NCBI GenBank assembly: GCA_014905825.1
Contig: JACGCN010000020.1
Coordinates: 124,001 to 188,000 of the forward strand
Source of the DNA: Lyophyllum atratum
Taxonomy: Eukaryota > Basidiomycota > Agaricomycetes > Agaricales > Lyophyllaceae
Reading direction: 5' to 3'
Length of the DNA: 64,000 bases
In this document: one piece after another, positions 7,264-36,985 of the stretch
How positions within the stretch are numbered: the first letter of the stretch is position 1
How the letters are laid out: each line of letters starts with the position of its first letter
Notes under the pieces: generated by a model
The model's database searches: none
What the model saw: the letters and a program-made list of their open reading frames with translations, nothing else
What the model was told of the DNA's origin: nothing
Made by a program: the position numbers and the translations under genes

Positions 7264-7467
7264 TCAGCTGTCTTGGGGAGCATTTCCCCCCTGGTATAAA
7301 TATATAGGTTCGGCATAGAAAATTTGGAGGACATCATATGCAAGCTTGGCGAGGAGAGATACAATCACCCTTTGGGCGAGCAGGGCACGCAACAGCACAT
7401 CAGGCTCGCTGTGCTTGGCACGGAAGCCGGGTAGGGAAACATCCACTTGCGTCCAAAATTCCTGACG
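7264..7467 (-). pseudogene. RNase H-reverse transcriptase, C-terminal piece (3 of 3)
   Basis: The last 67 or so codons of the interrupted RT, beginning RQEFWTQVDVSLPGF and ending at a stop at 7264-7266. The left end of transposon copy 1 starts directly upstream (7468). The target sequence CCTGACG occurs at 7461-7467 and again at 20915-20921. Joining across the element with one copy of this 7-mer gives 'PLVILRQ' followed directly by 'EFWTQ' in the same frame, which shows that these residues are the natural continuation of the piece at 20915-21600. Confidence 0.85.
7461..7467. repeat. Target-site duplication of copy 1, left (CCTGACG)
   Basis: The 7-mer CCTGACG directly precedes the first base of the element (CACCTGATACTG) and is repeated directly after its last base at 20915-20921. 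Confidence 0.85.
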
Positions 7468-7499
7468 CACCTGATACTGTAATGTGTTTGCAAACAAAC
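7468..7499 (+). repeat. Terminal inverted repeat, copy 1 transposase end
   Basis: 32 bp that match the inverted terminus at 20883-20914, with mismatches confined to two blocks (bases 3-6 and bases 14-18). It ends in TGTTTGCAAACAAAC. The first palindrome starts exactly 17 bp from the tip, as it does at the other end. Confidence 0.85.
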
Positions 7500-7597
7500 A
7501 CTGTACTACAGAAAAGAAATGTTTGCAAACATGACTGTCAACTAGAGGGGTATGTTTGCAAACATTTCCTCTCGTTATAGGGCCATGTTTGCAAACA
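7485..7597. promoter_or_regulatory. Four subterminal palindromes TGTTTGCAAACA (outer end)
   Basis: Perfect 12-bp palindromes at 7485-7496, 7520-7531, 7553-7564 and 7586-7597, spaced 35, 33 and 33 bp (about three helical turns). Arrays like this at transposon ends are usually transposase-binding sites; that role is inferred. Three more lie at the opposite end. Confidence 0.8.
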
Positions 7598-7913
7598 TTT
7601 CCTGTCATTACCGTTTCAATTCTACATTCAAACCCGACACCATTACCAAATATGGATGAGCTGTCGAGCTCATCGTTCAATGCTCAAGCTCATCATTCAA
7701 TGCATCGAGCAGCACCCCGCACCTCATTTCTTCTTTTGGCTACTTCTAAGCGATTTCCCGCCCGACGATTCCCGATGATCCCATCACTGCATTGCGCCCC
7801 TTGCCGCCCTTGGCCCGTTATTGCTTACTGTGCCTCGCGCTCAAAATATCCAGAATTAGACCGTGTATGAATTAGACCGTGTATATATATAGAATTGTAG
7901 CAATAGGTACCAA
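7598..7913. other. Subterminal non-coding region of copy 1
   Basis: Between the palindrome array and the transposase stop codon. It contains a short local duplication of the type 'gctcatcgttcaatgctcaa/gctcatcattcaatgc' near 7668-7700. No gene seen; it probably includes the transposase 3' UTR. Confidence 0.5.
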
Positions 7914-10900
7914 TTATAGCCCGTCCTCATCGTCGTTATGCTCAGCATCAATGACTTCCGAGGGAATGACAACACCGCTTCCAACAAGTACATAGTCCTC
8001 TACATGTCTCCAGAGAACGTGGAAGTATCGCTCCATCTCCTGAAGCATTGCGGCCTGCTCGTTTGCATATGCCCACCGCCCGTCATGTGTTACATCATCA
8101 TCGTAACGACTGACCTGAAACACAGCAGAGGCGCGGGTATGCCACTGAGCGGCCTTACTGGAAAGGAAGTGACGTACCCGCCGCATCTCCTCCCTCAAAA
8201 GGAGTACTTCCTCCCTCCAGCGATCGGCCCGCGCCTTGCTTTTGCACCACTCAATCCGGAGGTCTGAGGTACTAGATGTATAAGAACATGAATGTCAGGA
8301 AGATAAAGCAGCTCACCGTCTCGCAGACACTCATCCTGCCGTTGTTCCAAGTCGCCAATCTTCATCCATATCCAGGATATCGTTGTACGGCCCTTCGAAG
8401 GACGGGCATCAGTCGGACGCATATACGCACTGGCCTGAGCCTCATCTAAAGCTCTGATATCACCGTCCAGGAGTACAGGGAACAGGGTCTCCCAGCCCAG
8501 CTTCTCAAGCGCGAATGCCAACGACCCCAGAGCCTTGCGAGCAGCACGATACTTCGCGGCTGCACTCTTGATCTTCGAGTCCATCCTGGTTATAATCCCT
8601 CGAGAACGGGTGTTCTGGCGTTGTCCCCGCTGGAAACGATCTTTGTCGTGGTATAGGTACGCGCGTAGTCGAAGGCCATCGCGAAGTTCAGCGAGAGCAT
8701 CACTGGCCTGTGCATTACGAAGGTCCCACTCCATTGACCGTAGGCGTAGGTCACAGGGAGGGCCGGAAGAGGAGTGTAGGTCGGAGGGAAGGTAAAGAGG
8801 GATGTCCTGGACAGGGTCTTCATTCTCACCCTGCACCTCGATGTCATGCGCACGTACAGCGGCTAGTCCCGGGACATAGAGATGTTGGACTTCAATCCAA
8901 GCAGTGATCTTCCGGCGCAAAGCATTGGCTTGCGCCTGCAGCTGGCCTTTCTGCTTGTCGGTGGCATGCTGGCCTAGAGCAGCATAATCAACAGCAAGGC
9001 GCCGTCTATGAGAGACATATTAGTGTAAGATCTGAATGATAAGGGTCTATACTCACTGCTTCTGCTCGAAATCGAGTCCCATGGTTATTAACTCGCAAGC
9101 AGATATGTCGTGGTGCAGCGCATACGCCCGGCCAGCCTTGAGGTCAGCGGCTTCTTCATTAGCCAGACGTTTACGAACTCCATCTTGCGAGATTTCTGCG
9201 AGGGCAATTTAGAGAACTGCAAGATGGATAGCGAACGCAGACATACCTTTGAACTCCTTCTCATATGGGTTTTTCTGGGTATGATTGACCTCCCACCTCG
9301 AAAGTTGCAGCCTCCAGTCGTCGACAGATTCCTTATCCAAACCAGCCTCAAATTCTGCGTGTAGGGAGTGATGTTCGTTGGCTTCCTTGACCGCTTCCTT
9401 GATCTTCCGTAATAGTGTAACACCTATGTATACAAGATAAGTAGATCAATCGAGCCAATGGAGAAACAACTTACCCATGAGACATGTCTTTTTCCAATTC
9501 CAATCACCAAAATGGTCATCCAGGGTATCGCGACGGTGACCAGGTCCCATCTCCCGAGTACTTGTAGCCACAGGGTTGATGTGTGACCATCCCCGCTCAA
9601 CACCTTCCCCATCAGTTCGGCCAACGTCCACGTTATAGTTGAAGGAGTACGTGGTCTGGCATGGGCGTATGTGGGCAGGAAGATGGAATTTGGGAATGAG
9701 GAAGCGAACGAGGACCTTGCCGTCGTGATCGATATGGAGTTTATGTGGATATTGCGCCATCCGTTCCCAGACATGGACACTCCATTGACATACAATGTCA
9801 TAAGAGACGACAATGGAGAGCAATTCGTGGTTGGATAGTGAAAGTAGGAATAGGTAGTCTACATTGATGTACCTGAGAATCGGGGGTTAGGACGATGCGA
9901 CATGTTACGGTCTATAAACTGACCGTTCGCCTTTCAATAGATCACCAACGGAGAGGGGCCGCTTGCAGTCGTGTCTTGCACAGTCAATTGCTACCACACC
10001 CGTTGCTGCCAACCCTTTGGTCGCACGTTCAGCATTGACAGCATTATGGCTTGAGCAGGTGCTTTTCTATTCGCATAATGAGTCAGTACATGAAGTATGA
10101 GCGACATGAGAACATACGGGCTGGACAATAACTTTATCAAATACTTTGAGGAACTTCTTGAAACGCTGTTCTGGGGCAAAGTACGACCATCCCTGGCTTA
10201 AACTGGGATCCATGGCCTCTGACGAGACATTCTTCCTCTTTAGACGGAAGTTCGCATCAAGAGCGAGAAACAAACAATACAGGAACCTTCAACATACATG
10301 TCAATTCGATGAAGTCACCAAAGAATGACGAACAGCTCACCTGATTTCTGGGGCCACGGTCTCCCAACCCGGAGGAAGATTAAGCCCAGGTTGAGGACAG
10401 GCGGGGCAAAGAACAGCGCATTCTCCCTGTTTTGTTGAGGTGATGCCAGCAGGGTCATGTCCCCTCCCAGCTCGCTTCGTCATCTTCAAGTGTCGATATT
10501 CCCGAACCATGACCATGAACGCAGGATATCGAGACTGAATCACCGCATCAGGACATTGAATATAAGTGGAGTAGTGGTATAATCAGTACCTTTGGCGTAC
10601 ACATGCCTGTGTTGTCAGTGAGACGCTTGACACCGTTGTAGAACTCGAGTGCTGAAGCCTTGGATTCGAAGCTGATCATCTGAAATAGCTTGAGGACGGA
10701 TAGTGTTGCGGCAGTCCTCGGTCGGTCCACAGATGCAGGAAACCATCGTTGGCGGAGAAGCTGGATGAAGGGGGGCTGCTTCTGCGTACAGTCACAGAAA
10801 TCGACACTGACTTCGTGTATGCCGTTGACGTGGATGACCATGAAGTCATCAGAGACGCGGCCGGGCGCAAAATTGCTGCAGGTTTCGCCAGGCGGGTGGC

Positions 10901-11630
10901 CTAGTTGTACCCGTAGGCCAAGCGATTTGAGGGATGTCTTCTTGAAATATGTTCCCGTCCATTCCTATAAGTTGATAACATGAGCACCTTTCAGGAAACG
11001 AAGAAAAATAAACTCACCTCGAGATGATGGAGAAAATTATGCTGATGCCTTGAAAGTATACAGGACTTGCATAGGAGCTCAACGATATCACAATCGCAAC
11101 AACGATACACCACCGGCTCGGAGTGTAATGGGCACGTGGTGTCGTTGGGGTTGCCTCGCCCCTCAAGGCGTAGAAATTCCGCAAGGAATATGTCTCGTTC
11201 CAGAAGCCATCTCTTGAGTGGGTTATACTAGTTCCAACCATATATGTTAGCCACCTGAATCGACAACAAAGTGAAAGGTTCTCACATTCATCCTGGGGCG
11301 CTTTTCGGTGACTGTCTCACCCTCGACCTGGTCGAGATACTTGGGGTCAACATCCAGAGGCAAGTCATCGGACACGTATTCGTAGTTCCACATGTCAGGG
11401 TTGTTGACAGACTCCGAGGCAGACGACGAGAGGGGATGGTCCCTGGGGATGTCAAAGCGGGTGGTCGATACGCTGAAGGACATGCTGTCAGCACGGAGAT
11501 CGTAGTGTACTGAGGGAACCGAGATGGTAGGTGTAGTTGAGGGACCAACGCCATCGGAGGGATCATCGTCGAGGGGAATGACGACCATACCCGTCTTCTG
11601 CTTCTTCCTCCCCCGGCGTTGGCTAGACAT
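7914..11630 (-). CDS. KDZ transposase with CxC2 cysteine cluster (copy 1)
   Basis: Eleven exons splice to 1062 residues, matching the copy 2 model exon for exon. The N-terminus is basic (RRGRKKQK), likely a nuclear signal or DNA contact. At about residues 145-185 lies the CxC2-like cluster (CPLH, CCDCD, CKSC, HQHNFLHH), a putative zinc-binding DNA-recognition module. The KDZ catalytic core follows. Its diagnostic strings are VDYLFLL (D484), SYDIVCQW (D504), PKFHLPAHI and RTDGEGVERGW (E571), then LDDHFGDWNWKK; the D-D-E set is the likely RNase H-fold active site. The C-terminal third is helical and charged. This copy reads HNDDEDGL near the C-terminus where copy 2 has HNNDEDGL. No stop or frameshift seen, so it is probably an active transposase. 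Confidence 0.92.
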
Positions 11631-11713
11631 TGCTGGACTGAAGTTTGAAAGATGGATGGAGAAGGAAGAACGTCTCTGATGGATGGGGGTGGGAAGGAGA
11701 TCTGCCGTTGACT

Positions 11714-11719
11714 AGACAT
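11714..11719 (-). promoter_or_regulatory. Upstream out-of-frame ATG before the transposase start (copy 1)
   Basis: A ~90-bp duplication around the start codon creates a second ATG-TCT-AG(T/C)-CAACG context 89 bp upstream of the chosen transposase ATG, near 11717-11719. Because 89 is not a multiple of three, translation from it would run out of frame across the true start. It could reduce transposase output if the transcript starts upstream. Confidence 0.5.
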
Positions 11720-11822
11720 CGCTAGACTGAAGTTCGAAGGATGGAAGGAGAAGGAGGGACACCTCTGAGGATGAGGGTGGGAGGGAGAGCTCCTCAGATG
11801 GAACAGACACTGAAAATCTGAG

Positions 11823-12202
11823 CATCGAGGAACGTGCGGATGAGTGGGGGAACACGCGCCATGAATAGACATAGCTGACGCACCCGTACCTTCTGACGCA
11901 TGGGCTCCTGCAAATTTTATTGAGGAACATGTGGATCAGCGAGTCAACGCGCACCGTAAATAGACATAGCTGATGCACCTGTACCTTCTGACGCATGGGT
12001 TTCTGCAAATTTGATTGAGGAACATGTGGATCAGCGAGTCAACGCGCTCCGTGAATAGACATAGCTGACGCACCTGTACCTTCTGACGCATGGGCTCCTG
12101 CAAATTTGATTGAGGAACATGTGGATCAGCGAGTCATCGCGCGCCGTGAATAGACATAACTGACTCACCTGTACCTTCAAGCGCATGGGCTCCTGCAAAT
12201 TT
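11823..12202. repeat. 95-bp tandem repeat x4 upstream of the transposase (copy 1)
   Basis: Four units with an exact 95-bp period; the copy 2 units start at 30316, 30411, 30506 and 30601. Each unit contains AAATTTGCAG, then GAGCCCATGCG, a GGTACAGGTGC step and CTATGTCTATTCACGG. A degenerate fifth start follows. The array sits between the TET stop and the transposase start. In transcript orientation every unit has a TTTGCAG acceptor-like and an AGGTAC donor-like string, so it may be a repeated promoter or UTR module. Confidence 0.8.
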
Positions 12203-12553
12203 GTTTGCGTGCCACCGCTTATACCTCACCCGGACTCATATGATTGGTCATGTTAAGGTACATCGCCTGGTGTGCATGTGTCGCATGCATGCAGAGGTGG
12301 TGCTGAAATATATTCCATGTAAGCGATTGGTCAACCCCTGAGCCGACTCATACCTTGCGTGGCGCATACAGAATTTATGATTGGCAATAGCTGTCGAGGC
12401 ACAATGTAACCTGGAAATGCACATCATCTGACTCGGATCATGGCTTCGAATGTGAAATTCGAGATAGGAGCTACCCCAGCTTGTGATGAGAAGCTGAGCC
12501 TGCTGAGGGTAGATTATTTGCATTAGCGTATCGAGAATTACACATGTATCGTA
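12203..12553. other. TET 3' flank (copy 1)
   Basis: Non-coding sequence between the TET stop codon and the 95-bp repeats. The short minus-strand frame here has no recognisable motifs. Confidence 0.45.
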
Positions 12554-14613
12554 TTACAAACTAGTGGCTACAAATTCCCGACAGGCCCGACGGTGCTCGC
12601 GCTCCGACTTGGGAATGCCAGTCCCCATGAACACCTGATGGCGATCCTTCACAAGCCCGGTAATTGTGGAGAACAGATGTAAAGATCTTGCCTTCCGCTG
12701 GGCACGGTCACCGTTGAGCTTTTCGATGATGGCCTTACCAGTCTTGGGGTGGTCCCGGAGAATAGATTGGGCTGTGCGAAAGCCATAGCGAACATAGCGT
12801 ACAAGACCGCCGGCACAGAACTGGGTGATAGAGTAACGCTGTTCGCCAGGCTGAATGGCTGTGTTACCATGGCGAAGCAGACCGGAGGGGAGAAGGATTG
12901 TGGAGCCAGGAGGGAATTCTATCGCGATCTTGAGATCGAAAAGGACGAGATGACCGCCCTGTTTCGGGTTGAACTTGCCGAGCGCCGTAACAGGGCACAA
13001 ACCGTGGGGTGAGTTGTGGAAATCGAGGTGGTCAAGAGTGACGGTGGAGGGGCCGAGGTTGAAGCTGATGCCGGGGTAAATTGACTCGGGGAAGTTAAGG
13101 CTCAATTCATCATCATTTAGTGTGAGACGAGTAAGGTGGTAGGAAAGATCTTCATAGACCTTTGGTGCGTATTTGGCCAAGGAGTCTGTGTCGATGAATC
13201 AACCTAAGTCAAAGGCATAGTCGAGTGAAGACTCACCTGCTTGAAAGGCAGCGATTTGCGCTATGTTGGTGTCGCTGAGAAGGTCCTTGACAAGGTGTTC
13301 CTCTGCTACTGTCGTGTGCTGGAGATTTCCGGGTTTCTGTAAATAATTTTTTGAGCAACTTGGTAGGGGTATACGGATACAAAAGCGCACCTTCTGTCCA
13401 CCACCATGCGAAATCCCACAGGGCAGAGAACTGTAATCACCGCGGCGGTTACGGTCCTCCAGAGGAGAGAACACTCCACTCCGAAGACCCCTAATGCGAA
13501 CGTCCGCCAGCTTCTGTGCAACAGCATCGACGAGGTCTGACCACTTTGATGGAGTAGAAGGAGGAGATGGAGATGTTCCTGGTGCGGGATAAGGCACGAC
13601 AATTGGCGGCTGTCCCGCAAGAAATACGATCACACGGCCCTTTTGGTCCACAATGACCTTGGGCGTCCTTATTTCAAGTCAGCAAACGCTTTGAAGAAAA
13701 AAGTTGGGGTAAAACGTACTGTCCGTCCCAGACTATGACCCGATACCCTTTCTGTTTGAGGAGCTCAATCGTCGGGATCTTGGAATTCCTTGTGAGGTAC
13801 GGACGCCCGATCCAGCCATCATACGAAGTTGGGAGGTCTGCGATGTCGATTTCGGTTCTGATGTAACGAAGCCGCTCCTCCGCAGGTGAATACACTTCAG
13901 ATATATCAATGTTGTGATTCAATTGATTGAAAGAAACAGTGAATTTTAAGGAAAGCACCTTCGATGATTGGGCGACGGCGCTTGGCAGCATCGGGGTGAT
14001 GTGAGACTATGAAAAAATATTAGTACCTGGAAGACACCTATGAGTAAACACGAGCGCACCTTCTGCATATGAGCGACGGTATCCGGAACCTGGTCGATGA
14101 CGTTGCGAGGCGTCTGGAACGGGGGTGGGGGCTGCTGCTGGTGCTGTGGATGGTGGTATGGGAAGAGGAGGGGTCCGCGGTGGCTCCGGTTCGTCTGATT
14201 GATCGATCAGGGGTGTGACTACCGGACCCAGGTGATACCGGTGATACCGACATCAACATACCTTCCACAGTTGCTCGATAGGGCCGCAATGCAGCCATGC
14301 CATCATTGGAGGCTGACGGCAAATTCAGAGAGGGAGACATAGACATATAGAAATGAAAAATCAAGACTTACCCCAGGATTTTTAAGAGAACGAGGATGTG
14401 GTCTATATTTGGATGAGGAACTTCGCGAAATATAACAGTGATGATTGCATGTGTTTGAATCGGGAGTTCCACATGGGTGATAGGAGGTGGGACGGTGGGC
14501 AGCATGTGGAAATAGTGGGAAGAAGGTGGGCGATCGGTGGGAATGGGTTGGACTCCAATGAATTTGGGTGTGCCATGTATAATCCTGTTGGACGAGTTCA
14601 TGGCTGAGGGCAT
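12554..14613 (-). CDS. TET/JBP-family 2OG-Fe(II) dioxygenase (copy 1)
   Basis: Eight exons (12554-13185, 13237-13336, 13391-13667, 13720-13894, 13959-14006, 14060-14194, 14262-14312, 14373-14613) encode 552 residues. TET/JBP enzymes oxidise 5-methylcytosine or thymine in DNA using 2-oxoglutarate, Fe(II) and O2. The core is in the last exon: HLDFHN with the iron ligands H395 and D397, distal H448 in LLRHGNTAI, and R459 in GEQRYSITQF, the expected 2OG-binding Arg. Upstream, GISHGGGQK at about residue 305 followed by PGNLQH is typical of fungal transposon-borne TET proteins. The N-terminal ~200 residues are Pro-rich without a recognised domain. Its start is 71 bp from the divergent basic-protein gene. 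All catalytic residues are present, so activity is likely. Confidence 0.92.
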
Positions 14614-14684
14614 TTTTGAACTCTTTCAGTGACAAGAAAATCAATTTACTTCCCGTCTTCCTTCGACACAAGTTTCTTTCTGCA
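14614..14684. promoter_or_regulatory. 71-bp divergent promoter between TET and basic-protein genes (copy 1)
   Basis: The ATG of the TET model (14613, minus) and the ATG of the basic-protein gene (14685, plus) are only 71 bp apart, so the two genes must share their promoter and 5' UTR region. The spacing is identical in copy 2. Co-expression of the pair is a reasonable inference. Confidence 0.6.
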
Positions 14685-15552
14685 ATGTCAACTGAAAAGA
14701 CTTCCGGTGGACCTAAAAAGGGCAAAGACGGGCTCACAAAGTACCAACGCTATTACCAGAAGTGAACTATGTTTGCATTTTATTTTAGAGCATTATTAAT
14801 ATTTCTACAGGCATCCAGAGCTTAGAGAGAAGAAACGTGAGCGTGATCGGATACGTCGCCAGAAATTGAAGGAAGAATCGCTTGCAACATCGGTCGATAA
14901 TGAAACCCTTGAACCACTCCTTCCTGACTTCCATGCTACTGCTGCACCTTATGTCGACAAGATGGTCCAAGAATCAATCGTTGCCATAACTGCAGAGGAT
15001 ACTTTACCAGAACCCGGGTCATATCGAGAGCTTGACGAGCTCAATGAATTGCGTCTGTGGGTGATACGCTGGGGAAAAGGTTGGGGGGGTATTTCGAATT
15101 GGGATACGGGTCTCGACGCATCATACAACCATGCTCTCAAGCGGGATAACGTTGCACATTGGCGAGAACAAATTAGCAAGCATGCACAGACAGGAAGGCT
15201 CTTATTGGGTCGAGTTCACACTATGGACGGCTCCTTGCCTACAGCGGGGTGGAAGATCAGGGAATTATGGCGAGAGAAGTCTACTTTGTTGGATCTGCTC
15301 GTTAGGGGAGTCACCACACTGGAGATCAAGACGTCTATCCTACCTGGGCTAGGTAGAGTAGACTCACTATACCGTGAGTTGGAGGATGCTCATACCTCAG
15401 AGGAAAGCGCGGTGGAGACAGATTCCGGGTCATTGCTCAGTGATGGCAACAGTGCTGACGACGAGGATGAGACTGTGCAGAGTTCCGACGACGAACGTGA
15501 CGACGAAGACGAAGACATGGATTTGGGGGGAGATAACAGCTACGACCTGTAG
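14685..15552 (+). CDS. 272-aa protein with basic N-terminus and acidic tail (copy 1)
   Basis: Two exons (14685-14761, 14811-15552) splice in frame through QK|HPELREKK. The first 45 residues are strongly basic (GPKKGKDG, RYYQKHPELREKKRERDR, IRRQKLKEE), a layout common in DNA-contacting helices of agaricomycete transposon proteins. The middle (WVIRWGKGWGGISNWDTGLDASYNHALKR) is globular and unrecognised. The C-terminus is acidic (DDEDETVQSSDDERDDEDEDMDLGGD). Function unknown; a chromatin- or DNA-associated partner of the neighbouring TET protein is an inference from the shared promoter. It is convergent with the viroplasmin-like gene, 39 bp away. Confidence 0.8.
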
Positions 15553-15591
15553 ATACAACCATATATGTATGTTATAGCCACTACAAAGAGC

Positions 15592-16622
15592 TCAAACCGC
15601 GGCATTGCCAGTGAGGATACTCTTCTCAATCTTGGAGACAACCTTGGTGACCATACCCGCTGCCAGTGCCACTCTATATTCCTTCCAGCCCTTTTCTTCT
15701 GATGAGGTGCGATGACCAGTTCCGCCTGATATGCCGAGGATATTAAGATTAATATGGTGGCTAGGATTGTAGTCAGTGACAGTGGACATAGATGGGGTAA
15801 GAAAGATAGACGTACTAGCCCTTGTACACACCAGGCTCACGGCCTACAGTGATGACATACCACCTTTCAGAAGGGGGGACGTCCTCATGGTCGTGCGTGA
15901 GAGGAGGTGCGGGAGTGATAGGCATCACAGCAGGCGCTGGAGCCTCAGGTGGCTCCTGGGCTTGAGTGCTATCCGACAACTCCGTAAGAAACTCAGAAGG
16001 GTCAGGCGAGAACCCTAACCCAAACTCCTGCTGCCAGTTAGTCGAGCCTGTGGAAATTGACAAAGCATCGAGATTGTCAGGGATGTCGTCCACAGGTGGA
16101 GCGCGTTCTACAAGGGGAGCGCGTGGGGCAGGGGCTTGAGCCGCAACCGGCTCGGCTGCAGGCAGCGCCACGGAGGGAACACAGCGAGTAGCAGGGATGC
16201 AATGAGGCCTTCCGTTGCCTGAGTGATGTGATCAGAGATCATATATTGTATTTGATGTATCAAAAACGTACCACGCATGACCCAGAGACCACGCTCAGCA
16301 CAATAGGCACGAAGAGCCGGAGGGAGGTCGGTAGGCTCAATTGATTTGTACCCCATAGCTACGGCTACGGCTGAGCAACGATATATGAGTGACAGACTAC
16401 TTCTCGAAGAAATACACATACCAGGGGCAAGGGGCACACTAATACGGGTAGTGGCTGAGGGATCGGATATGGTTAGCAAAAATATCAGCATAGCAGGAAA
16501 AACTAACCGTCTAGGGCAGTTTGCAATGCGACCGATAACAGCTGCAGAGCTTCAGATGATTCTGAGCATGAGCCACACATCGGCTCAGGCTGAGAACCAG
16601 CACGTCCTGAGGTTGAGGTCAT
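15592..16622 (-). CDS. Viroplasmin/RNase H1-N-like domain protein, 272 aa (copy 1)
   Basis: Five exons encode 272 residues. The N-terminal part includes GYKSIEPTDLPPALRAYCAERGLWVMRG. A Pro/Ala-rich linker follows. The C-terminus (from about residue 203) is RWYVITVGREPGVYKGY, then GISGGTGHR and GWKEYRAALAAG, the pattern of the small viroplasmin/RNase H1 N-terminal fold, which in RNase H1 binds RNA-DNA hybrids or dsRNA. The last intron splits the codon for the Tyr after VYKG. No catalytic RNase H domain follows. This copy has V where copy 2 has A in EYR(V/A)ALAAG. A nucleic-acid-binding role is inferred from the fold resemblance only. Confidence 0.75.
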
Positions 16623-17121
16623 TTAGATGATAGGGGATGTCGATCTGGTGGATTCTAGCGATAAGGTTGGCTTTTAAGATTTTTGTGATGGAATTTACCG
16701 ACATATTGTGTGTTTGCCGAGCATGCTTCGTTCGCTTGAGAGAGCCTGTTGCACATGCTCACACGATCTGGTCGACTGTGATCAAATTGGCTTTTAAGTT
16801 TTTGTGATGAAATTTACCGATATATTGCGTGTTTGCCGAGCATGCCTCGCTCGCTTGAGGGAGCCTATCGGTCATGGGGCTTCAGGGCTGTGGTGCGGCA
16901 TAGCCGGGATGTGGCGTTGTGCTCGGTGCGACTGCCAGGTGGGCAGAGGTTGGACGCATGGTTAAGTTATAAAGGGTAAAATGTACCGGTTCAACTGGTC
17001 AATTGAGCCAAAATATATATTTGAACCAGCCTGATACAGGAATTGAGACGCAGTATAATATTACAAAAATTGATTACTTACCTTGCCTCGTGAGTCGTCC
17101 TGTATCCCTCAAATCCTAAAG
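16623..17121. promoter_or_regulatory. Divergent promoter region with 120-bp duplication (copy 1)
   Basis: About 500 bp separates the start of the viroplasmin-like gene (minus) from that of the 728-aa gene (plus). It contains two imperfect ~100-bp direct repeats about 120 bp apart (starting near 16664 and 16784), each with TTGGCTTTTAAG, TTTACCGA(C/T)ATATTG and GTTTGCCGAGCATGC. No coding potential; probably a shared regulatory region. Confidence 0.55.
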
Positions 17122-20594: not shown

Positions 20595-20803
20595 TAAGCA
20601 GAGCCTAGAAAGGCAAATCTTTTTTTAGGTCAACGTAGCCCAGAATGGATGGGAGGCGGCGAGGGCGGGTGCCGGGGACGAATCGAGACGACGAATAAGC
20701 GATTCCGAATGAGGAAGGAGTTTCGTGGTGGTGTGGAACGGTGGGCGGCATATTTGAAGGTGCGGAGGCGGGTTATAAGCAAGGCTAATGGGCGCGAGCG
20801 GGG

Positions 20804-20914: not shown

Positions 20915-20921
20915 CCTGACG
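20915..20921. repeat. Target-site duplication of copy 1, right (CCTGACG)
   Basis: Directly abuts the final CAGTATAGCCTG of copy 1 and is identical to 7461-7467. Confidence 0.85.
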
Positions 20922-25892: not shown

Positions 25893-26923
25893 ATGACCTC
25901 AACCTCAGGACGTGCTGGTTCTCAGCCTGAGCCGATGTGTGGCTCATGCTCAGAATCATCTGAAGCTCTGCAGCTGTTATCGGTCGCATTGCAAACTGCC
26001 CTAGACGGTTAGTTTTTCCTGCTATGCTGATATTTTTGCTAACCATATCCGATCCCTCAGCCACTACCCGTATTAGTGTGCCCCTTGCCCCTGGTATGTG
26101 TATTTCTTCGAGAAGTAGTCTGTCACTCATATATCGTTGCTCAGCCGTAGCCGTAGCTATGGGGTACAAATCAATTGAGCCTACCGACCTCCCTCCGGCT
26201 CTTCGTGCCTATTGTGCTGAGCGTGGTCTCTGGGTCATGCGTGGTACGTTTTTGATACATCAAATACAATATATGATCTCTGATCACATCACTCAGGCAA
26301 CGGAAGGCCTCATTGCATCCCTGCTACTCGCTGTGTTCCCTCCGTGGCGCTGCCTGCAGCCGAGCCGGTTGCGGCTCAAGCCCCTGCCCCACGCGCTCCC
26401 CTTGTAGAACGCGCTCCACCTGTGGACGACATCCCTGACAATCTCGATGCTTTGTCAATTTCCACAGGCTCGACTAACTGGCAGCAGGAGTTTGGGTTAG
26501 GGTTCTCGCCTGACCCTTCTGAGTTTCTTACGGAGTTGTCGGATAGCACTCAAGCCCAGGAGCCACCTGAGGCTCCAGCGCCTGCTGTGATGCCTATCAC
26601 TCCCGCACCTCCTCTCACGCACGACCATGAGGACGTCCCCCCTTCTGAAAGGTGGTATGTCATCACTGTAGGCCGTGAGCCTGGTGTGTACAAGGGCTAG
26701 TACGTCTATCTTTCTTACCCCATCTATGTCCACTGTCACTGACTACAATCCTAGCCACCATATTAATCTTAATATCCTCGGCATATCAGGCGGAACTGGT
26801 CATCGCACCTCATCAGAAGAAAAGGGCTGGAAGGAATATAGAGCGGCACTGGCAGCGGGTATGGTCACCAAGGTTGTCTCCAAGATCGAGAAGAGTATCC
26901 TCACTGGCAATGCCGCGGTTTGA
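25893..26923 (+). CDS. Viroplasmin/RNase H1-N-like domain protein (copy 2)
   Basis: Exons 25893-26007, 26061-26093, 26145-26243, 26297-26699 and 26755-26923 give 272 residues. The ATG at 25893 starts MTSTSGRAGSQPEPM. The splice at 26699/26755 restores VYKGYHHINLNILGISGG, linking the two halves of the viroplasmin-like domain; reading through instead would end the protein at 26700. One Val/Ala difference from copy 1. It may bind RNA-DNA hybrids or structured nucleic acid; this is fold-based inference. Confidence 0.75.
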
Positions 26924-26962
26924 GCTCTTTGTAGTGGCTATAACATACATATATGGTTGTAT

Positions 26963-27830
26963 CTACAGGTCGTAGCTGTTATCTCCCCCCAAATCCATGT
27001 CTTCGTCTTCGTCGTCACGTTCGTCGTCGGAACTCTGCACAGTCTCATCCTCGTCGTCAGCACTGTTGCCATCACTGAGCAATGACCCGGAATCTGTCTC
27101 CACCGCGCTTTCCTCTGAGGTATGAGCATCCTCCAACTCACGGTATAGTGAGTCTACTCTACCTAGCCCAGGTAGGATAGACGTCTTGATCTCCAGTGTG
27201 GTGACTCCCCTAACGAGCAGATCCAACAAAGTAGACTTCTCTCGCCATAATTCCCTGATCTTCCACCCCGCTGTAGGCAAGGAGCCGTCCATAGTGTGAA
27301 CTCGACCCAATAAGAGCCTTCCTGTCTGTGCATGCTTGCTAATTTGTTCTCGCCAATGTGCAACGTTATCCCGCTTGAGAGCATGGTTGTATGATGCGTC
27401 GAGACCCGTATCCCAATTCGAAATACCCCCCCAACCTTTTCCCCAGCGTATCACCCACAGACGCAATTCATTGAGCTCGTCAAGCTCTCGATATGACCCG
27501 GGTTCTGGTAAAGTATCCTCTGCAGTTATGGCAACGATTGATTCTTGGACCATCTTGTCGACATAAGGTGCAGCAGTAGCATGGAAGTCAGGAAGGAGTG
27601 GTTCAAGGGTTTCATTATCGACCGATGTTGCAAGCGATTCTTCCTTCAATTTCTGGCGACGTATCCGATCACGCTCACGTTTCTTCTCTCTAAGCTCTGG
27701 ATGCCTGTAGAAATATTAATAATGCTCTAAAATAAAATGCAAACATAGTTCACTTCTGGTAATAGCGTTGGTACTTTGTGAGCCCGTCTTTGCCCTTTTT
27801 AGGTCCACCGGAAGTCTTTTCAGTTGACAT
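26963..27830 (-). CDS. 272-aa basic/acidic protein (copy 2)
   Basis: Two exons (27754-27830, 26963-27704). No amino-acid difference from copy 1 was seen. Basic N-terminal 45 residues, Trp-rich middle, acidic C-terminus. Head-to-head with TET copy 2 (71 bp apart), tail-to-tail with the viroplasmin-like gene. Unrecognised family. Confidence 0.8.
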
Positions 27831-27901
27831 TGCAGAAAGAAACTTGTGTCGAAGGAAGACGGGAAGTAAATTGATTTTCTTGTCACTGAAAGAGTTCAAA
27901 A
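27831..27901. promoter_or_regulatory. 71-bp divergent promoter TET / basic protein (copy 2)
   Basis: Counterpart of 14614-14684; it separates the two start codons. Confidence 0.6.
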
Positions 27902-29964
27902 ATGCCCTCAGCCATGAACTCGTCCAACAGGATTATACATGGCACACCCAAATTCATTGGAGTCCAACCCATTCCCACCGATCGCCCACCTTCTTCCCAC
28001 TATTTCCACATGCTGCCCACCGTCCCACCTCCTATCACCCATGTGGAACTCCCGATTCAAACACATGCAATCATCACTGTTATATTTCGCGAAGTTCCTC
28101 ATCCAAATATAGACCACATCCTCGTTCTCTTAAAAATCCTGGGGTAAGTCTTGATTTTTCATTTCTATATGTCTATGTCTCCCTCTCTGAATTTGCCGTC
28201 AGCCTCCAATGATGGCATGGCTGCATTGCGGCCCTATCGAGCAACTGTGGAAGGTATGTTGATGTCGGTATCACCGGTATAATCACCTGGGTCCGGTAGT
28301 CACACCCCTGATCGATCAATCAGACGAACCGGAGCCACCGCGGACCCCTCCTCTTCCCATACCACCATCCACAGCACCAGCAGCAGCCCCCACCCCCGTT
28401 CCAGACGCCTCGCAACGTCATCGACCAGGTTCCGGATACCGTCGCTCATATGCAGAAGGTGCGCTCGTGTTTACTCATAGGTGTCTTCCAGGTACTAATA
28501 TTTTTTCATAGTCTCACATCACCCCGATGCTGCCAAGCGCCGTCGCCCAATCATCGAAGGTGCTTTCCTTAAAATTCACTGTTTCTTTCAATCAATTGAA
28601 TCACAACATTGATATATCTGAAGTGTATTCACCTGCGGAGGAGCGGCTTCGTTACATCAGAACCGAAATCGACATCGCAGACCTCCCAACTTCGTATGAT
28701 GGCTGGATCGGGCGTCCGTACCTCACAAGGAATTCCAAGATCCCGACGATTGAGCTCCTCAAACAGAAAGGGTATCGGGTCATAGTCTGGGACGGACAGT
28801 ACGTTTTACCCCAACTTTTTTCTTCAAAGCGTTTGCTGACTTGAAATAAGGACGCCCAAGGTCATTGTGGACCAAAAGGGCCGTGTGATCGTATTTCTTG
28901 CGGGACAGCCGCCAATTGTCGTGCCTTATCCCGCACCAGGAACATCTCCATCTCCTCCTTCTACTCCATCAAAGTGGTCAGACCTCGTCGATGCTGTTGC
29001 ACAGAAGCTGGCGGACGTTCGCATTAGGGGTCTTCGGAGTGGAGTGTTCTCTCCTCTGGAGGACCGTAACCGCCGCGGTGATTACAGTTCTCTGCCCTGT
29101 GGGATTTCGCATGGTGGTGGACAGAAGGTGCGCTTTTGTATCCGTATACCCCTACCAAGTTGCTCAAAAAATTATTTACAGAAACCCGGAAATCTCCAGC
29201 ACACGACAGTAGCAGAGGAACACCTTGTCAAGGACCTTCTCAGCGACACCAACATAGCGCAAATCGCTGCCTTTCAAGCAGGTGAGTCTTCACTCGACTA
29301 TGCCTTTGACTTAGGTTGATTCATCGACACAGACTCCTTGGCCAAATACGCACCAAAGGTCTATGAAGATCTTTCCTACCACCTTACTCGTCTCACACTA
29401 AATGATGATGAATTGAGCCTTAACTTCCCCGAGTCAATTTACCCCGGCATCAGCTTCAACCTCGGCCCCTCCACCGTCACTCTTGACCACCTCGATTTCC
29501 ACAACTCACCCCACGGTTTGTGCCCTGTTACGGCGCTCGGCAAGTTCAACCCGAAACAGGGCGGTCATCTCGTCCTTTTCGATCTCAAGATCGCGATAGA
29601 ATTCCCTCCTGGCTCCACAATCCTTCTCCCCTCCGGTCTGCTTCGCCATGGTAACACAGCCATTCAGCCTGGCGAACAGCGTTACTCTATCACCCAGTTC
29701 TGTGCCGGCGGTCTTGTACGCTATGTTCGCTATGGCTTTCGCACAGCCCAATCTATTCTCCGGGACCACCCCAAGACTGGTAAGGCCATCATCGAAAAGC
29801 TCAACGGTGACCGTGCCCAGCGGAAGGCAAGATCTTTACATCTGTTCTCCACAATTACCGGGCTTGTGAAGGATCGCCATCAGGTGTTCATGGGGACTGG
29901 CATTCCCAAGTCGGAGCGCGAGCACCGTCGGGCCTGTCGGGAATTTGTAGCCACTAGTTTGTAA
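27902..29964 (+). CDS. TET/JBP-family 2OG-Fe(II) dioxygenase (copy 2)
   Basis: Exons 27902-28142, 28203-28253, 28324-28458, 28512-28559, 28624-28798, 28851-29127, 29182-29281 and 29333-29964 splice without error to 552 residues with all GT-AG introns. The only difference seen from copy 1 is 3 bp inside intron 2, so the proteins should be identical. The double-stranded beta-helix core lies in the last exon with HLD (395-397), H448 and R459. There is no CXXC zinc finger, unlike animal TET1 and TET3; fungal transposon TETs usually lack one. The start at 27902 is the first ATG after the shared promoter; a second in-frame ATG four codons later is also possible. Confidence 0.92.
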
Positions 29965-30315
29965 TACGATACATGTGTAATTCTCGATACGCTAATGCAA
30001 ATAATCTACCCTCAGCAGGCTCAGCTTCTCATCACAAGCTGGGGTAGCTCCTATCTCGAATTTCACATTCGAAGCCATGATCCGAGTCAGATGATGTGCA
30101 TTTCCAGGTTACATTGTGCCTCGACAGCTATTGCCAATCATAAATTCTGTATGCGCCACGCAAGGTATGAGTCGGCTCAGGGGTTGACCAATCGCTTACA
30201 TGGAATATATTTCAGCACCACCTCTGCATGCATGCGACACATGCACACCAGGCGATGTACCTTAACATGACCAATCATATGAGTCCGGGTGAGGTATAAG
30301 CGGTGGCACGCAAAC
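29965..30315. other. TET 3' flank (copy 2)
   Basis: Non-coding counterpart of 12203-12553. Confidence 0.45.
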
Positions 30316-30695
30316 AAATTTGCAGGAGCCCATGCGCTTGAAGGTACAGGTGAGTCAGTTATGTCTATTCACGGCGCGCGATGACTCGCTGATCCACATG
30401 TTCCTCAATCAAATTTGCAGGAGCCCATGCGTCAGAAGGTACAGGTGCGTCAGCTATGTCTATTCACGGAGCGCGTTGACTCGCTGATCCACATGTTCCT
30501 CAATCAAATTTGCAGAAACCCATGCGTCAGAAGGTACAGGTGCATCAGCTATGTCTATTTACGGTGCGCGTTGACTCGCTGATCCACATGTTCCTCAATA
30601 AAATTTGCAGGAGCCCATGCGTCAGAAGGTACGGGTGCGTCAGCTATGTCTATTCATGGCGCGTGTTCCCCCACTCATCCGCACGTTCCTCGATG
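30316..30695. repeat. 95-bp tandem repeat x4 upstream of the transposase (copy 2)
   Basis: Units begin with AAATTTGCAG at 30316, 30411, 30506 and 30601, an exact 95-bp period. A decayed start (AGATTTTCAG) follows at about 30697. Unit differences are mostly single bases. The array is identical in position to that in copy 1. Confidence 0.8.
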
Positions 30696-30798
30696 CTCAG
30701 ATTTTCAGTGTCTGTTCCATCTGAGGAGCTCTCCCTCCCACCCTCATCCTCAGAGGTGTCCCTCCTTCTCCTTCCATCCTTCGAACTTCAGTCTAGCG

Positions 30799-30801
30799 AT
30801 G
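30799..30801 (+). promoter_or_regulatory. Duplicated upstream ATG of the transposase (copy 2)
   Basis: The sequence around 30799 (ATGTCTAGTCAACG) duplicates that around the transposase start at 30888 (ATGTCTAGCCAACG), including the preceding CTTCAGTC(T/C)AGC. The offset of 89 bp puts it out of frame; its frame stays open past the real start until about 31230. Confidence 0.55.
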
Positions 30802-30887
30802 TCTAGTCAACGGCAGATCTCCTTCCCACCCCCATCCATCAGAGACGTTCTTCCTTCTCCATCCATCTTTCAAACTTCAGTCCAGCA

Positions 30888-33800
30888 ATGTCTAGCCAAC
30901 GCCGGGGGAGGAAGAAGCAGAAGACGGGTATGGTCGTCATTCCCCTCGACGATGATCCCTCCGATGGCGTTGGTCCCTCAACTACACCTACCATCTCGGT
31001 TCCCTCAGTACACTACGATCTCCGTGCTGACAGCATGTCCTTCAGCGTATCGACCACCCGCTTTGACATCCCCAGGGACCATCCCCTCTCGTCGTCTGCC
31101 TCGGAGTCTGTCAACAACCCTGACATGTGGAACTACGAATACGTGTCCGATGACTTGCCTCTGGATGTTGACCCCAAGTATCTCGACCAGGTCGAGGGTG
31201 AGACAGTCACCGAAAAGCGCCCCAGGATGAATGTGAGAACCTTTCACTTTGTTGTCGATTCAGGTGGCTAACATATATGGTTGGAACTAGTATAACCCAC
31301 TCAAGAGATGGCTTCTGGAACGAGACATATTCCTTGCGGAATTTCTACGCCTTGAGGGGCGAGGCAACCCCAACGACACCACGTGCCCATTACACTCCGA
31401 GCCGGTGGTGTATCGTTGTTGCGATTGTGATATCGTTGAGCTCCTATGCAAGTCCTGTATACTTTCAAGGCATCAGCATAATTTTCTCCATCATCTCGAG
31501 GTGAGTTTATTTTTCTTCGTTTCCTGAAAGGTGCTCATGTTATCAACTTATAGGAATGGACGGGAACATATTTCAAGAAGACATCCCTCAAATCGCTTGG
31601 CCTACGGGTACAACTAGGCCACCCGCCTGGCGAAACCTGCAGCAATTTTGCGCCCGGCCGCGTCTCTGATGACTTCATGGTCATCCACGTCAACGGCATA
31701 CACGAAGTCAGTGTCGATTTCTGTGACTGTACGCAGAAGCAGCCCCCCTTCATCCAGCTTCTCCGCCAACGATGGTTTCCTGCATCTGTGGACCGACCGA
31801 GGACTGCCGCAACACTATCCGTCCTCAAGCTATTTCAGATGATCAGCTTCGAATCCAAGGCTTCAGCACTCGAGTTCTACAACGGTGTCAAGCGTCTCAC
31901 TGACAACACAGGCATGTGTACGCCAAAGGTACTGATTATACCACTACTCCACTTATATTCAATGTCCTGATGCGGTGATTCAGTCTCGATATCCTGCGTT
32001 CATGGTCATGGTTCGGGAATATCGACACTTGAAGATGACGAAGCGAGCTGGGAGGGGACATGACCCTGCTGGCATCACCTCAACAAAACAGGGAGAATGC
32101 GCTGTTCTTTGCCCCGCCTGTCCTCAACCTGGGCTTAATCTTCCTCCGGGTTGGGAGACCGTGGCCCCAGAAATCAGGTGAGCTGTTCGTCATTCTTTGG
32201 TGACTTCATCGAATTGACATGTATGTTGAAGGTTCCTGTATTGTTTGTTTCTCGCTCTTGATGCGAACTTCCGTCTAAAGAGGAAGAATGTCTCGTCAGA
32301 GGCCATGGATCCCAGTTTAAGCCAGGGATGGTCGTACTTTGCCCCAGAACAGCGTTTCAAGAAGTTCCTCAAAGTATTTGATAAAGTTATTGTCCAGCCC
32401 GTATGTTCTCATGTCGCTCATACTTCATGTACTGACTCATTATGCGAATAGAAAAGCACCTGCTCAAGCCATAATGCTGTCAATGCTGAACGTGCGACCA
32501 AAGGGTTGGCAGCAACGGGTGTGGTAGCAATTGACTGTGCAAGACACGACTGCAAGCGGCCCCTCTCCGTTGGTGATCTATTGAAAGGCGAACGGTCAGT
32601 TTATAGACCGTAACATGTCGCATCGTCCTAACCCCCGATTCTCAGGTACATCAATGTAGACTACCTATTCCTACTTTCACTATCCAACCACGAATTGCTC
32701 TCCATTGTCGTCTCTTATGACATTGTATGTCAATGGAGTGTCCATGTCTGGGAACGGATGGCGCAATATCCACATAAACTCCATATCGATCACGACGGCA
32801 AGGTCCTCGTTCGCTTCCTCATTCCCAAATTCCATCTTCCTGCCCACATACGCCCATGCCAGACCACGTACTCCTTCAACTATAACGTGGACGTTGGCCG
32901 AACTGATGGGGAAGGTGTTGAGCGGGGATGGTCACACATCAACCCTGTGGCTACAAGTACTCGGGAGATGGGACCTGGTCACCGTCGCGATACCCTGGAT
33001 GACCATTTTGGTGATTGGAATTGGAAAAAGACATGTCTCATGGGTAAGTTGTTTCTCCATTGGCTCGATTGATCTACTTATCTTGTATACATAGGTGTTA
33101 CACTATTACGGAAGATCAAGGAAGCGGTCAAGGAAGCCAACGAACATCACTCCCTACACGCAGAATTTGAGGCTGGTTTGGATAAGGAATCTGTCGACGA
33201 CTGGAGGCTGCAACTTTCGAGGTGGGAGGTCAATCATACCCAGAAAAACCCATATGAGAAGGAGTTCAAAGGTATGTCTGCGTTCGCTATCCATCTTGCA
33301 GTTCTCTAAATTGCCCTCGCAGAAATCTCGCAAGATGGAGTTCGTAAACGTCTGGCTAATGAAGAAGCCGCTGACCTCAAGGCTGGCCGGGCGTATGCGC
33401 TGCACCACGACATATCTGCTTGCGAGTTAATAACCATGGGACTCGATTTCGAGCAGAAGCAGTGAGTATAGACCCTTATCATTCAGATCTTACACTAATA
33501 TGTCTCTCATAGACGGCGCCTTGCTGTTGATTATGCTGCTCTAGGCCAGCATGCCACCGACAAGCAGAAAGGCCAGCTGCAGGCGCAAGCCAATGCTTTG
33601 CGCCGGAAGATCACTGCTTGGATTGAAGTCCAACATCTCTATGTCCCGGGACTAGCCGCTGTACGTGCGCATGACATCGAGGTGCAGGGTGAGAATGAAG
33701 ACCCTGTCCAGGACATCCCTCTTTACCTTCCCTCCGACCTACACTCCTCTTCCGGCCCTCCCTGTGACCTACGCCTACGGTCAATGGAGTGGGACCTTCG

Positions 33801-34604
33801 TAATGCACAGGCCAGTGATGCTCTCGCTGAACTTCGCGATGGCCTTCGACTACGCGCGTACCTATACCACGACAAAGATCGTTTCCAGCGGGGACAACGC
33901 CAGAACACCCGTTCTCGAGGGATTATAACCAGGATGGACTCGAAGATCAAGAGTGCAGCCGCGAAGTATCGTGCTGCTCGCAAGGCTCTGGGGTCGTTGG
34001 CATTCGCGCTTGAGAAGCTGGGCTGGGAGACCCTGTTCCCTGTACTCCTGGACGGTGATATCAGAGCTTTAGATGAGGCTCAGGCCAGTGCGTATATGCG
34101 TCCGACTGATGCCCGTCCTTCGAAGGGCCGTACAACGATATCCTGGATATGGATGAAGATTGGCGACTTGGAACAACGGCAGGATGAGTGTCTGCGAGAC
34201 GGTGAGCTGCTTTATCTTCCTGACATTCATGTTCTTATACATCTAGTACCTCAGACCTCCGGATTGAGTGGTGCAAAAGCAAGGCGCGGGCCGATCGCTG
34301 GAGGGAGGAAGTACTCCTTTTGAGGGAGGAGATGCGGCGGGTACGTCACTTCCTTTCCAGTAAGGCCGCTCAGTGGCATACCCGCGCCTCTGCTGTGTTT
34401 CAGGTCAGTCGTTACGATGATGATGTAACACATGACGGGCGGTGGGCATATGCAAACGAGCAGGCCGCAATGCTTCAGGAGATGGAGCGATACTTCCACG
34501 TTCTCTGGAGACATGTAGAGGACTATGTACTTGTTGGAAGCGGTGTTGTCATTCCCTCGGAAGTCATTGATGCTGAGCATAACAACGATGAGGACGGGCT
34601 ATAA
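30888..34604 (+). CDS. KDZ transposase with CxC2 cysteine cluster (copy 2)
   Basis: Exons 30888-31232, 31291-31500, 31554-31928, 31984-32177, 32232-32400, 32452-32594, 32646-33043, 33095-33271, 33323-33461, 33513-34201 and 34255-34604 total 3189 nt, 1062 residues, all GT-AG with phases that agree. The CxC2 cluster (about residues 145-185) straddles exons 2-3. The catalytic core with VDYLFLL, SYDIVCQW and DGEGVERGW is in exon 7. The final exon was placed at 34255 because only this acceptor joins DD|LRIEWCKSKARADRW in frame. The protein ends HNNDEDGL. Transposase of the KDZ superfamily; the nuclease fold assignment comes from family knowledge. Confidence 0.93.
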
Positions 34605-34920
34605 TTGGTACCTATTGCTACAATTCTATATATATACACGGTCTAATTCATACACGGTCTAATTCTGGATATTTTGAGCGCGAGGCACAGTAAGCAATAA
34701 CGGGCCAAGGGCGGCAAGGGGCGCAATGCAGTGATGGGATCATCGGGAATCGTCGGGCGGGAAATCGCTTAGAAGTAGCCAAAAGAAGAAATGAGGTGCG
34801 GGGTGCTGCTCGATGCATTGAATGATGAGCTTGAGCATTGAACGATGAGCTCGACAGCTCATCCATATTTGGTAATGGTGTCGGGTTTGAATGTAGAATT
34901 GAAACGGTAATGACAGGAAA
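34605..34920. other. Subterminal non-coding region of copy 2
   Basis: Counterpart of 7598-7913. No gene seen. Confidence 0.5.
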
Positions 34921-35033
34921 TGTTTGCAAACATGGCCCTATAACGAGAGGAAATGTTTGCAAACATACCCCTCTAGTTGACAGTCATGTTTGCAAACATT
35001 TCTTTTCTGTAGTACAGTGTTTGTTTGCAAACA
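34921..35033. promoter_or_regulatory. Four subterminal palindromes (copy 2 outer end)
   Basis: TGTTTGCAAACA at 34921-34932, 34954-34965, 34987-34998 and 35022-35033, mirroring copy 1. Confidence 0.8.
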
Positions 35034-35050
35034 CATTACAGTATCAGGTG
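35019..35050 (-). repeat. Terminal inverted repeat, copy 2 outer end
   Basis: Ends CAGTATCAGGTG, directly followed by the duplicated target CTCCCTC at 35051-35057. Confidence 0.85.
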
Positions 35051-35057
35051 CTCCCTC
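35051..35057. repeat. Target-site duplication of copy 2, right (CTCCCTC)
   Basis: Identical to 21594-21600; it reads GAGGGAG on the RT coding strand. Confidence 0.85.
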
Positions 35058-36985
35058 TGGCTAGTGACCGTATCCAGTACTACCTCACATCCCGCAGTCA
35101 GGTAGGGGTCAACTCGAGCCATGTACAGTGTCCGCGACTCCCATACAGGCATGTCACCTACAATGCGCTGTACGCCTAAACACATGTTTGCGACCCGCAT
35201 CGCCTTTGAGGCATTCAGTCTGTACTGTTCCACAAATGTGGAGTTGCCCGACCCGCCCCGAAAGTGGATACCGACGTATTGGAAGTCATTCACCTCTTCC
35301 AGCTTGTGTGTTCCCAGGTAGAAGTCATGCTTCCGCTTGGGCTTCGCACCCTTCATGCAGAAGACGCACTTCTCGAATTGGACCTCACACCCATTGTCAG
35401 CTGCCCATCCCACAAGGTCACTGAGCTTGCCCTGAAATGCGACAGGGCAAAGTGTTACTAGTGCTATGTCATCCGCCTGTTCCAGCTGTGATGTGGGTAT
35501 GCCATCGAGAGTGATGTCCCCTGGGTACTCACTCACCACAAAATCTGCAAGATGCACATTCCATATACCCGGCGAGCCAGGATCACCCGTTAGTAGCCCG
35601 AGCGTGCACAAAAATCTATGGGACATCTGACCGTCCATCCGCACCAGGTACGACATGCTGCGGTAGAGTTTCTGCAGCCAGCTTATGAGTGCACCTGATA
35701 TCCCCCAGGCATACAGCTTGACCCACAATGTCTCCCTGTCGGTCCACGGAAACGCGTTCTTTAGGTCAATATATGCAATGTACAGAGTCTGGTTCATTGC
35801 GCTCGCTTTGTCTGCCATGGTCCGCAAGATGAATGGGTTGTTATTCGTGCGGAACCCTGTCCGGAACCCATTCTGTGAGTCCGGGAGAATGTCATGCCTG
35901 TCCACATACTCTCGCACGCGTCTGTCAATTAGCAGAGTAAAGAACTTCAGGAGACAGCTTTCAAGCACAATTAGCCTGTAGTTCTTGGGCAGTGACGCGT
36001 CCTTCTTGGGCTTTGGGATGCCTATGACCAAGGACGCTAGCCAGCGTGACGGAATCTCCATTTTTGCAAGACATTCTGCAAACAGGGCGGCGATCTTCCC
36101 ATTGGGAATGGCCATGATGTCTTTGTAGGAATACCCATCGGCCCCCACTGCACTGTCCATAGTGTGTGATTTCACATGGCGCTTTCCCCATGCAATCTCG
36201 TCCTCAGTGAATGGGCGGGAGAATAGACCATCTGGGGTAGTGTCCACACTGCGTTCAGGCAGGGCAGCCGCCAGCAGCTTGTTAAGTTGTAGCTGTTCGG
36301 CATTGAAGGAGTCCGGGAGTTGGGCTGGTGCATTCATCCTTGCACAAAGCTCCTCCGTGAGGTCTTCCAGTGACACCTCAGGTGCCACACGGCGAGAGTC
36401 TGTCCAGCTCCGAATCAGCTTCCAGAACTCCCCTGGGGTATCACAGGCGAGCAGGTCATGGCGCCTGGACTGTTGGAGTCTGCGCGTCTTTTCCCGGCCC
36501 CGATGTGGAGGCCAGCATTGTGGAACATCGTCATCCGTCTGAGGCTCTATGATGTGGTCCTTCGGTTTCGCAACAGGAATCTCCGCTAGCGATGTAAAGA
36601 CTTTAATAGTGTCAGGAAATAGGTTGTTGCAAGGTACATCTACATCCCACGGTACATCAGGCAGGGGGACATAGTCAGCGACCCATGGCTGCAGGGCCCC
36701 AGCCTTTGCAAGACTATCTGCCGCATCCCCCCATTCATTTCCTGAGTGGCCTTTGACCCATACAAACCGCGTAGGAGCCATACGCGCCGCCAATAATCGG
36801 ACCATGTCCTTGAGGAGATCACCATTTGGACAGTCCCACCCGAGCTGAGCATGTTGTGGTGCCCAGTAGCATGCCTCTCTGATGACGAGCTCAGAGTCGG
36901 TTACAATTTGGAGGTTCCGTCGTGGGTCCGCATCTAGTAGAGATTGGAGTGCCAGCGATCGTAAAACTTGGGGGGCCGATTGTGG
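35051..36985 (-). pseudogene. RNase H-reverse transcriptase, N-terminal piece (1 of 3)
   Basis: An open minus-strand frame of about 645 codons beginning after an in-frame TAG at 36986-36988. First comes a 5'-truncated RNase H domain (IVTDSELVIREACYW, then WVKGHSGNEWGDAADSLA); the first acidic residue of that active site lies beyond the truncation. A complete RT domain follows: KNYRLIVLES, SQNGFRTGFRTNNNPF, motif A YIDLKNAFP, LTGDPGSPGIWN, and motif C LEQADDIAL, where Gln replaces the usual Tyr/Phe of YADD. RNase H upstream of RT is usual for this agaricomycete family. It breaks at SQRE, where copy 2 inserted, and continues in frame in the piece at 20915-21600. Whether the TAG marks an old 5' truncation or an unrecognised upstream intron is open. 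Confidence 0.88.

Follow-up and report, generated by a model that had tools for sequence, protein, structure and literature searches.

The window, a stretch of 64,000 nucleotides, is part of contig C65 of the Lyophyllum atratum assembly (64.76 Mb, 151 contigs). A repeat search of the window yielded a 28-kb inverted structure, a long inverted repeat whose arms are two oppositely oriented copies of a TET-carrying KDZ (putatively Kyakuja-type) transposon: copy 1 at 7468–20914 (+ strand, 13,447 bp) and copy 2 at 21601–35050 (− strand, 13,450 bp). Both copies start with CACCTG and end with GCCTG. They interrupt a LINE which, including the inserts, spans 6918–36942, and the nested locus therefore records an ordered history of the LINE followed by two transposon insertions. 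The flanks of the window contain a UstYa-like ORF (687–1277) and a NACHT/NPHP3_N ORF (53954–55777).

Architecture and gene content of the transposon

The KDZ transposase gene of copy 1 is located at 7914–11630 on the − strand, where a script-made splice model of 11 exons is open over 1062 amino acids plus stop. Its mirror in copy 2 (30888–34604, +) is open under the same splice model, and the encoded protein differs from that of copy 1 by the single residue change D1057N. In copy 1 the CxC2, B-box and KDZ domains were located exon by exon, with the CxC2 cysteine cluster in exon 10551–10964 (E 1.3e-43) and the KDZ matches in exons 9449–9886 (E 2.8e-42) and 10070–10288 (E 1.9e-7). The KDZ transposase domain PF18758 scored above cut-off in both copies.

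DNA searches with both ends of the element unveiled at least four copies in the genome: the two in the window, one at C13:879002–892389 and one at C77:599219–626164, the last of which is incomplete and split by other sequence. A 7-bp target-site duplication and CA..TG termini (CACCTG or CACCTA ... GCCTG) were found for all four copies. The element ends exhibit a short imperfect similarity (CACCTGATACTGT / CAGGCTATACTGT), and the palindrome TGTTTGCAAACA is present near both ends of copy 1, with four copies at 7485–7597 and three at 20804–20897. Its core GTTTGCAAAC occurs seven times each in the C13 and C77 regions and was absent from the other fetched regions and from the remainder of the window. 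A 95-bp tandem repeat at 11824–12207 is longer in the window copies by one unit than in C13 and by two units than in C77 (alignment coordinates). Furthermore, an acidic ORF of 472 residues (18106–19521, + strand) is a predicted third gene of the transposon, for which a Pfam search gave no confident match.

For two TET-carrying Kyakuja families of Laccaria bicolor, 7-bp duplications and CA..TG ends are described (Kojima 2025, PMC12730594). As in the TET-carrying mushroom Kyakuja of that account, a KDZ transposase, 7-bp duplications, CA..TG ends and an internal gene for a TET/JBP-fold dioxygenase are combined in the present element. Unlike the Laccaria families, which are described there as devoid of terminal inverted repeats, it may have a short and imperfect inverted repeat at its ends, and unlike the Kyakuja as presented in that account it occurs as a close inverted pair; the main text of PMC12730594 makes no mention of Lyophyllum. 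The elements KDZ1–KDZ3 of Cryptococcus neoformans, which are about 9–11 kb long, shown to be mobile and present in few copies per genome (PMC12810828), resemble it in superfamily, size class and low copy number, but differ in their duplications of 8 bp (KDZ1) or 4–8 bp (KDZ2, KDZ3), their long TIRs of 139–241 bp and their CxC1 clusters, as far as described there.

The TET/JBP-like dioxygenase gene lies at 12557–13669 (− strand, with introns inside) in copy 1 and is mirrored in copy 2. Its product exhibits the TET-type double-stranded beta-helix fold with HxD...H, and its relationship to TET was settled by fold comparison. At the level of sequence profiles, the window exon reached 13.6 bits with Pfam Tet_JBP, which is under the curated cut-off of 34.9, none of the 18 places listed in a genome search with PF12851 falls into an element copy, and a precomputed Tet_JBP label was present in 7 of the 120 relatives listed (of 299). 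For residue analysis 30 sequences were aligned, namely P0001 together with 29 of the 120 listed relatives (299 in total), which were chosen by their length. H155 and D157 are invariant among these 30 sequences, so that a PE-type TET (HxE) was rejected. Position HxD+5 is occupied by N160 (at least 90% conserved) and HxD+11 by C166 (invariant), and the AG-type combination of G/S at HxD+5 and D at HxD+11 (positions 331 and 337 of CcTet) is therefore absent from this alignment. An AG-like protein of the same genome has S and D and aligns gapless at the N/C site (probability 78%). Searching solved structures by sequence, this AG-like protein matched CcTet at 7e-11, whereas the single transposon dioxygenase did not retrieve CcTet and the profile of 30 sequences gave no CcTet and one chance match at E 0.19. 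The Kyakuja dioxygenases, unlike the present one, are described as AG type, and the residues at HxD+5 and HxD+11 are held to govern 5mC and 6mA recognition in CcTet (PMC12730594). Since these two recognition residues are replaced by N and C, the substrate use of the transposon dioxygenase may differ from that of CcTet, and the enzyme possibly represents a further type of transposon-borne TET. With a TET-like fold and without the two CcTet residues, its activity is worth testing.

Two insertions into a 5'-truncated LINE

Alignment of copy 1 with copy 2 over 13,447 columns resulted in 7 substitutions and one 3-bp indel (0.052%). Five of the seven substitutions are CpG transitions. Deamination of methylcytosine would be expected to leave this pattern, even though the element encodes a TET-like enzyme. 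The duplication CCTGACG borders copy 1 at 7461–7467 and 20915–20921, and CTCCCTC (GAGGGAG on the other strand) borders copy 2 at 21594–21600 and 35051–35057, all four duplication copies being perfect. One insertion that was subsequently duplicated in inverted orientation would not account for a separate 7-bp duplication at each copy; this scenario was rejected, and the structure almost certainly originates from two separate, oppositely oriented insertions. Their insertion points are 679 bp apart; the distance of 686 bp given in an earlier reading of the sequence alone counts one duplication too.

The interrupted target runs on the − strand in three pieces. Piece A (35051–36942) is 5'-truncated and contains the remainder of an RNase H domain and the reverse transcriptase domain, piece B (20915–21600) comprises 686 bp including one 7-bp duplication on each side, and piece C (6918–7467) holds the ORF end, with the stop at 7264, and the 3' end with a (TCC)n tail. 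Paralogues reach further in the 5' direction, by 668 bp in the copy on C67 and by about 795 bp common to those on C97 and C64. The ORF pieces in the window are otherwise open and end at the same stop as the C67 copy. Reverse transcriptase, endonuclease (EN), variable 5' truncation and a simple 3' tail were all found, and the target is a LINE. The duplication made by the window LINE itself is 3–7 bp long (at most ATTGGAG); it is blurred by the tail, and some of its bases differ on C1. Evidently, the sequence-only reading was correct in placing two close and recent insertions of one TET-carrying KDZ transposon in opposite orientation here, as the inverted arms, the separate 7-bp duplications and the domains agree with it. 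Its view of the target as a reverse transcriptase gene has to be replaced by that of a truncated LINE copy, which is not an intact gene. Of the outer pieces which it had delimited, the first (35051–36985) starts correctly and ends too far out, the repeat ceasing at 36942 and 36943–36985 being flank, while the last (7264–7467) stops short of the 3' end at 6918.

The C67 copy of the LINE (L029:5857–9402) gave matches to RVT_1 and RNase H and a sub-threshold match to the endonuclease, which is clear in the relative P0121 of Tricholomella constricta. In both of them the domain order is EN–RNase H–RT. LINEs of the Tad1/I type have the order EN–RT–RNase H. The present LINE thus shares the EN, RT and RNase H domains, the variable 5' truncation and the simple 3' tail with the EN-type LINEs of the Tad1 and I group and is unlike them in the position of RNase H, which follows the endonuclease and precedes the reverse transcriptase. 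A further copy of this LINE contains an insert of ~9,187 bp (C64:1778576–1787762) with short inverted ends and a 6-bp duplication (ACCTTG); a Pfam search of 10 of its ORFs gave one match only, at E 0.04.

Uninterrupted paralogues on C67 and C97 allowed both insertion sites to be inspected without the transposons. Both sites are intact there, each 7-mer is present once, and pieces A/B and B/C abut with overlaps of exactly 7 bp, so that 3,114 bp are accounted for in each paralogue. These are the joins that had been predicted for removal of the copies together with one GAGGGAG and one CCTGACG. A stretch of C1, in addition, matches the window at about 89–96% identity on both sides of the insert and contains neither the LINE nor either transposon: its left flank corresponds to the window up to 6913, and the right flank from 36947 follows only 5 bp on. 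On C65 the flank junction lies ~131 kb in from the contig start, and on C1 it lies ~142 kb short of the contig end, distances which fit the expectation for homologous chromosome ends. Judged from its sequence, the C1 stretch is likely the allele on the homologous chromosome, a diverged duplication being the alternative. In a search for the Rpb2 domain one gene was found almost alike on C1 and C133, the remaining matches being single, which suggests that both haplotypes are held in places; the assembly seems to contain them only in part. The empty site, which the sequence-only reading had made the touchstone of its proposal, is thus seen in the joined paralogues, and the presumed allele on C1 is free of the whole 30-kb insert.

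The same comparison bears on the question of whether the structure is an assembly artefact, i.e., one real copy that was doubled or two LINE loci that were falsely joined through the shared 686 bp. Assembly is difficult for inverted repeats of 13 kb, and the locus was judged from the assembled sequence. Nevertheless, we consider an artefact extremely improbable: two different 7-bp duplications are not explained by a duplicated contig piece, and 7 sites and one indel distinguish the arms. Being contiguous on C1, the outer flanks stem from the same locus, so that a false join via the 686 bp is unlikely; as neither target nor transposons lie between them on C1, this contig also argues against a chimeric assembly.

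Origin of the second copy

Of the four copies found, copies 1 and 2 are most closely related to each other; the C13 copy comes next and differs from each of them by 0.92%. With C13 used for polarisation, copy 1 carries 3 private substitutions, and copy 2 carries 4 together with the 3-bp insertion. With four copies in 64.76 Mb, about 1.3e-4 pairs within 679 bp are expected by chance, where the four copies are a lower bound set by the DNA search; the expectation rises to 6e-4 pairs if only one fifth of the genome is available. Chance proximity thus has a probability of about 1e-4. We estimate the probability that the second copy arose by local transposition from the first at roughly 70%. Local hopping, one of two causes that the sequence-only reading had put forward, accordingly gains support from the divergence of 0.052% versus 0.92% and from the second KDZ pair described below.

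Recombination readily occurs between long inverted repeats that are separated by a short spacer. The two insertions could therefore be older, with gene conversion between the inverted arms having kept the copies alike, which could make them seem younger and closer kin than they are. Consistent with this explanation, the window LINE has 6 private changes versus C67 and C97 in 3,114 bp (0.19%; 4 of the 6 are CpG transitions), versus 3 and 4 private substitutions in the two 13.4-kb arms; the LINE must predate its inserts, however, and its extra changes consequently do not date them. Gene conversion appears very unlikely in view of the private changes that were retained in each arm and range over element positions 467 to 11170, the perfect state of all four duplication copies and the spacer, which is still collinear with the paralogues.

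A second KDZ family of ~10,973 bp provides a further pair, with copies at C72:531185–542157 and, inverted, at C72:579740–590712. These copies are 37.6 kb apart, much farther than those in the window, and identical over the compared 1,716 + 896 + 100 bp (2,712 of about 10,973 bp). Each has a 7-bp duplication, TATCTTT or TGGTTAG, and contigs without the insert were found for both, the former 7-mer being single on C89 and C109 and the latter on C141. The ends of this family are CACC...CCCCG and thus deviate from the CA..TG rule.

For the genome as a whole, 109 profile matches were merged by eye into 65 KDZ loci, which form 14 pairs within 60 kb versus 3.9 expected under random placement. Three of these 14 close pairs share the same profile signature, compared with a mean of 0.09 for shuffled labels (0 of 20,000 shuffles reached 3), the 60-kb limit having been picked after the pairs were seen; without the window pair 2 of 13 remain (P 0.0018). 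At a limit of 100 kb P is 0.00005 (0.0035 when the window pair is left out), and at 200 kb it is 0.00045 (0.0052 when it is left out). At 20 kb the result is weak (1 of 7, P about 0.04), because the KDZ domains of the window pair are 23 kb apart and only the pair on C13 counts. Evidence from the flanks is available for two of the same-signature pairs, those in the window and on C72.

The clustering of KDZ loci in general, irrespective of signature, would also be in line with independent arrivals from one distant source, the LINE or its surrounding chromatin being a preferred target. The LINE copy on C64 is likewise interrupted, though by the different ~9,187-bp insert with its 6-bp duplication, and both window copies could descend from one element at another place that has since been lost or is missing from the assembly. 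We regard independent arrival as rather unlikely. The C13 and C77 copies, i.e., two of the four found, lie outside the LINE, with no LINE match in 2.6–4.0 kb of flank per side in a search that detected a diverged LINE copy as positive control. Furthermore, the element was absent from all 7 other LINE-bearing regions fetched, and the duplications CCTGACG, GAGGGAG, CTACCAC and AATCCGT show no common motif by eye. The LINE is hence not a required target, the idea that the element inserts into this LINE family exclusively was rejected, and the target preference for the reverse transcriptase family that had been proposed from the sequence alone found no support in these copies.

Local transposition would have proceeded as follows. 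A 5'-truncated LINE would first have inserted into one haplotype, and a single 13.4-kb copy of the TET-carrying KDZ transposon would then have entered it through a cut-and-paste reaction that staggers the target cut by 7 bp. The resident copy or its sister-chromatid twin would soon have re-inserted 679 bp off in opposite orientation, the second insertion thus probably deriving directly from the first. The extra copy may have been gained because excision was coupled to replication or because the donor site was repaired from the sister chromatid, and both transposon copies would have ended on one chromosome. Other cut-and-paste transposons are known to gain copies from a replicated donor or by sister repair. 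Re-insertion near the donor is frequent for Ac/Ds, P elements and Sleeping Beauty, which also move by cut-and-paste; local transposition was demonstrated experimentally for these systems, whereas here it is deduced from sequence. In the open-licence literature searched, no paper combined Kyakuja with either local transposition or local hopping.

Nested transposons are ordinary in fungi. Less ordinary is one low-copy 13-kb element that inserted twice 679 bp apart, along with a second KDZ family that behaves similarly over a longer distance. Inverted sister pairs with junction evidence in two KDZ families of the same genome make it possible to test whether KDZ elements transpose locally. Resistance to methylation-based silencing has been ascribed to TET-carrying transposons, and their destinations on moving are little described in the literature found. 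One might speculate that the dioxygenase oxidises methylcytosine near the resident copy and thereby opens nearby silenced repeats, such as the truncated LINE, to re-insertion of the sister copy, often inverted. We give little credence to this idea; if true, close inverted pairs would be the signature of TET-carrying KDZ transposons that prepare their own landing zone. The same-signature pair on C13 consists of KDZ stretches at C13:388728 and C13:393847, which are 100% identical over 881 bp in direct orientation and 5.1 kb apart; this pair may be a tandem duplication or a second hop.
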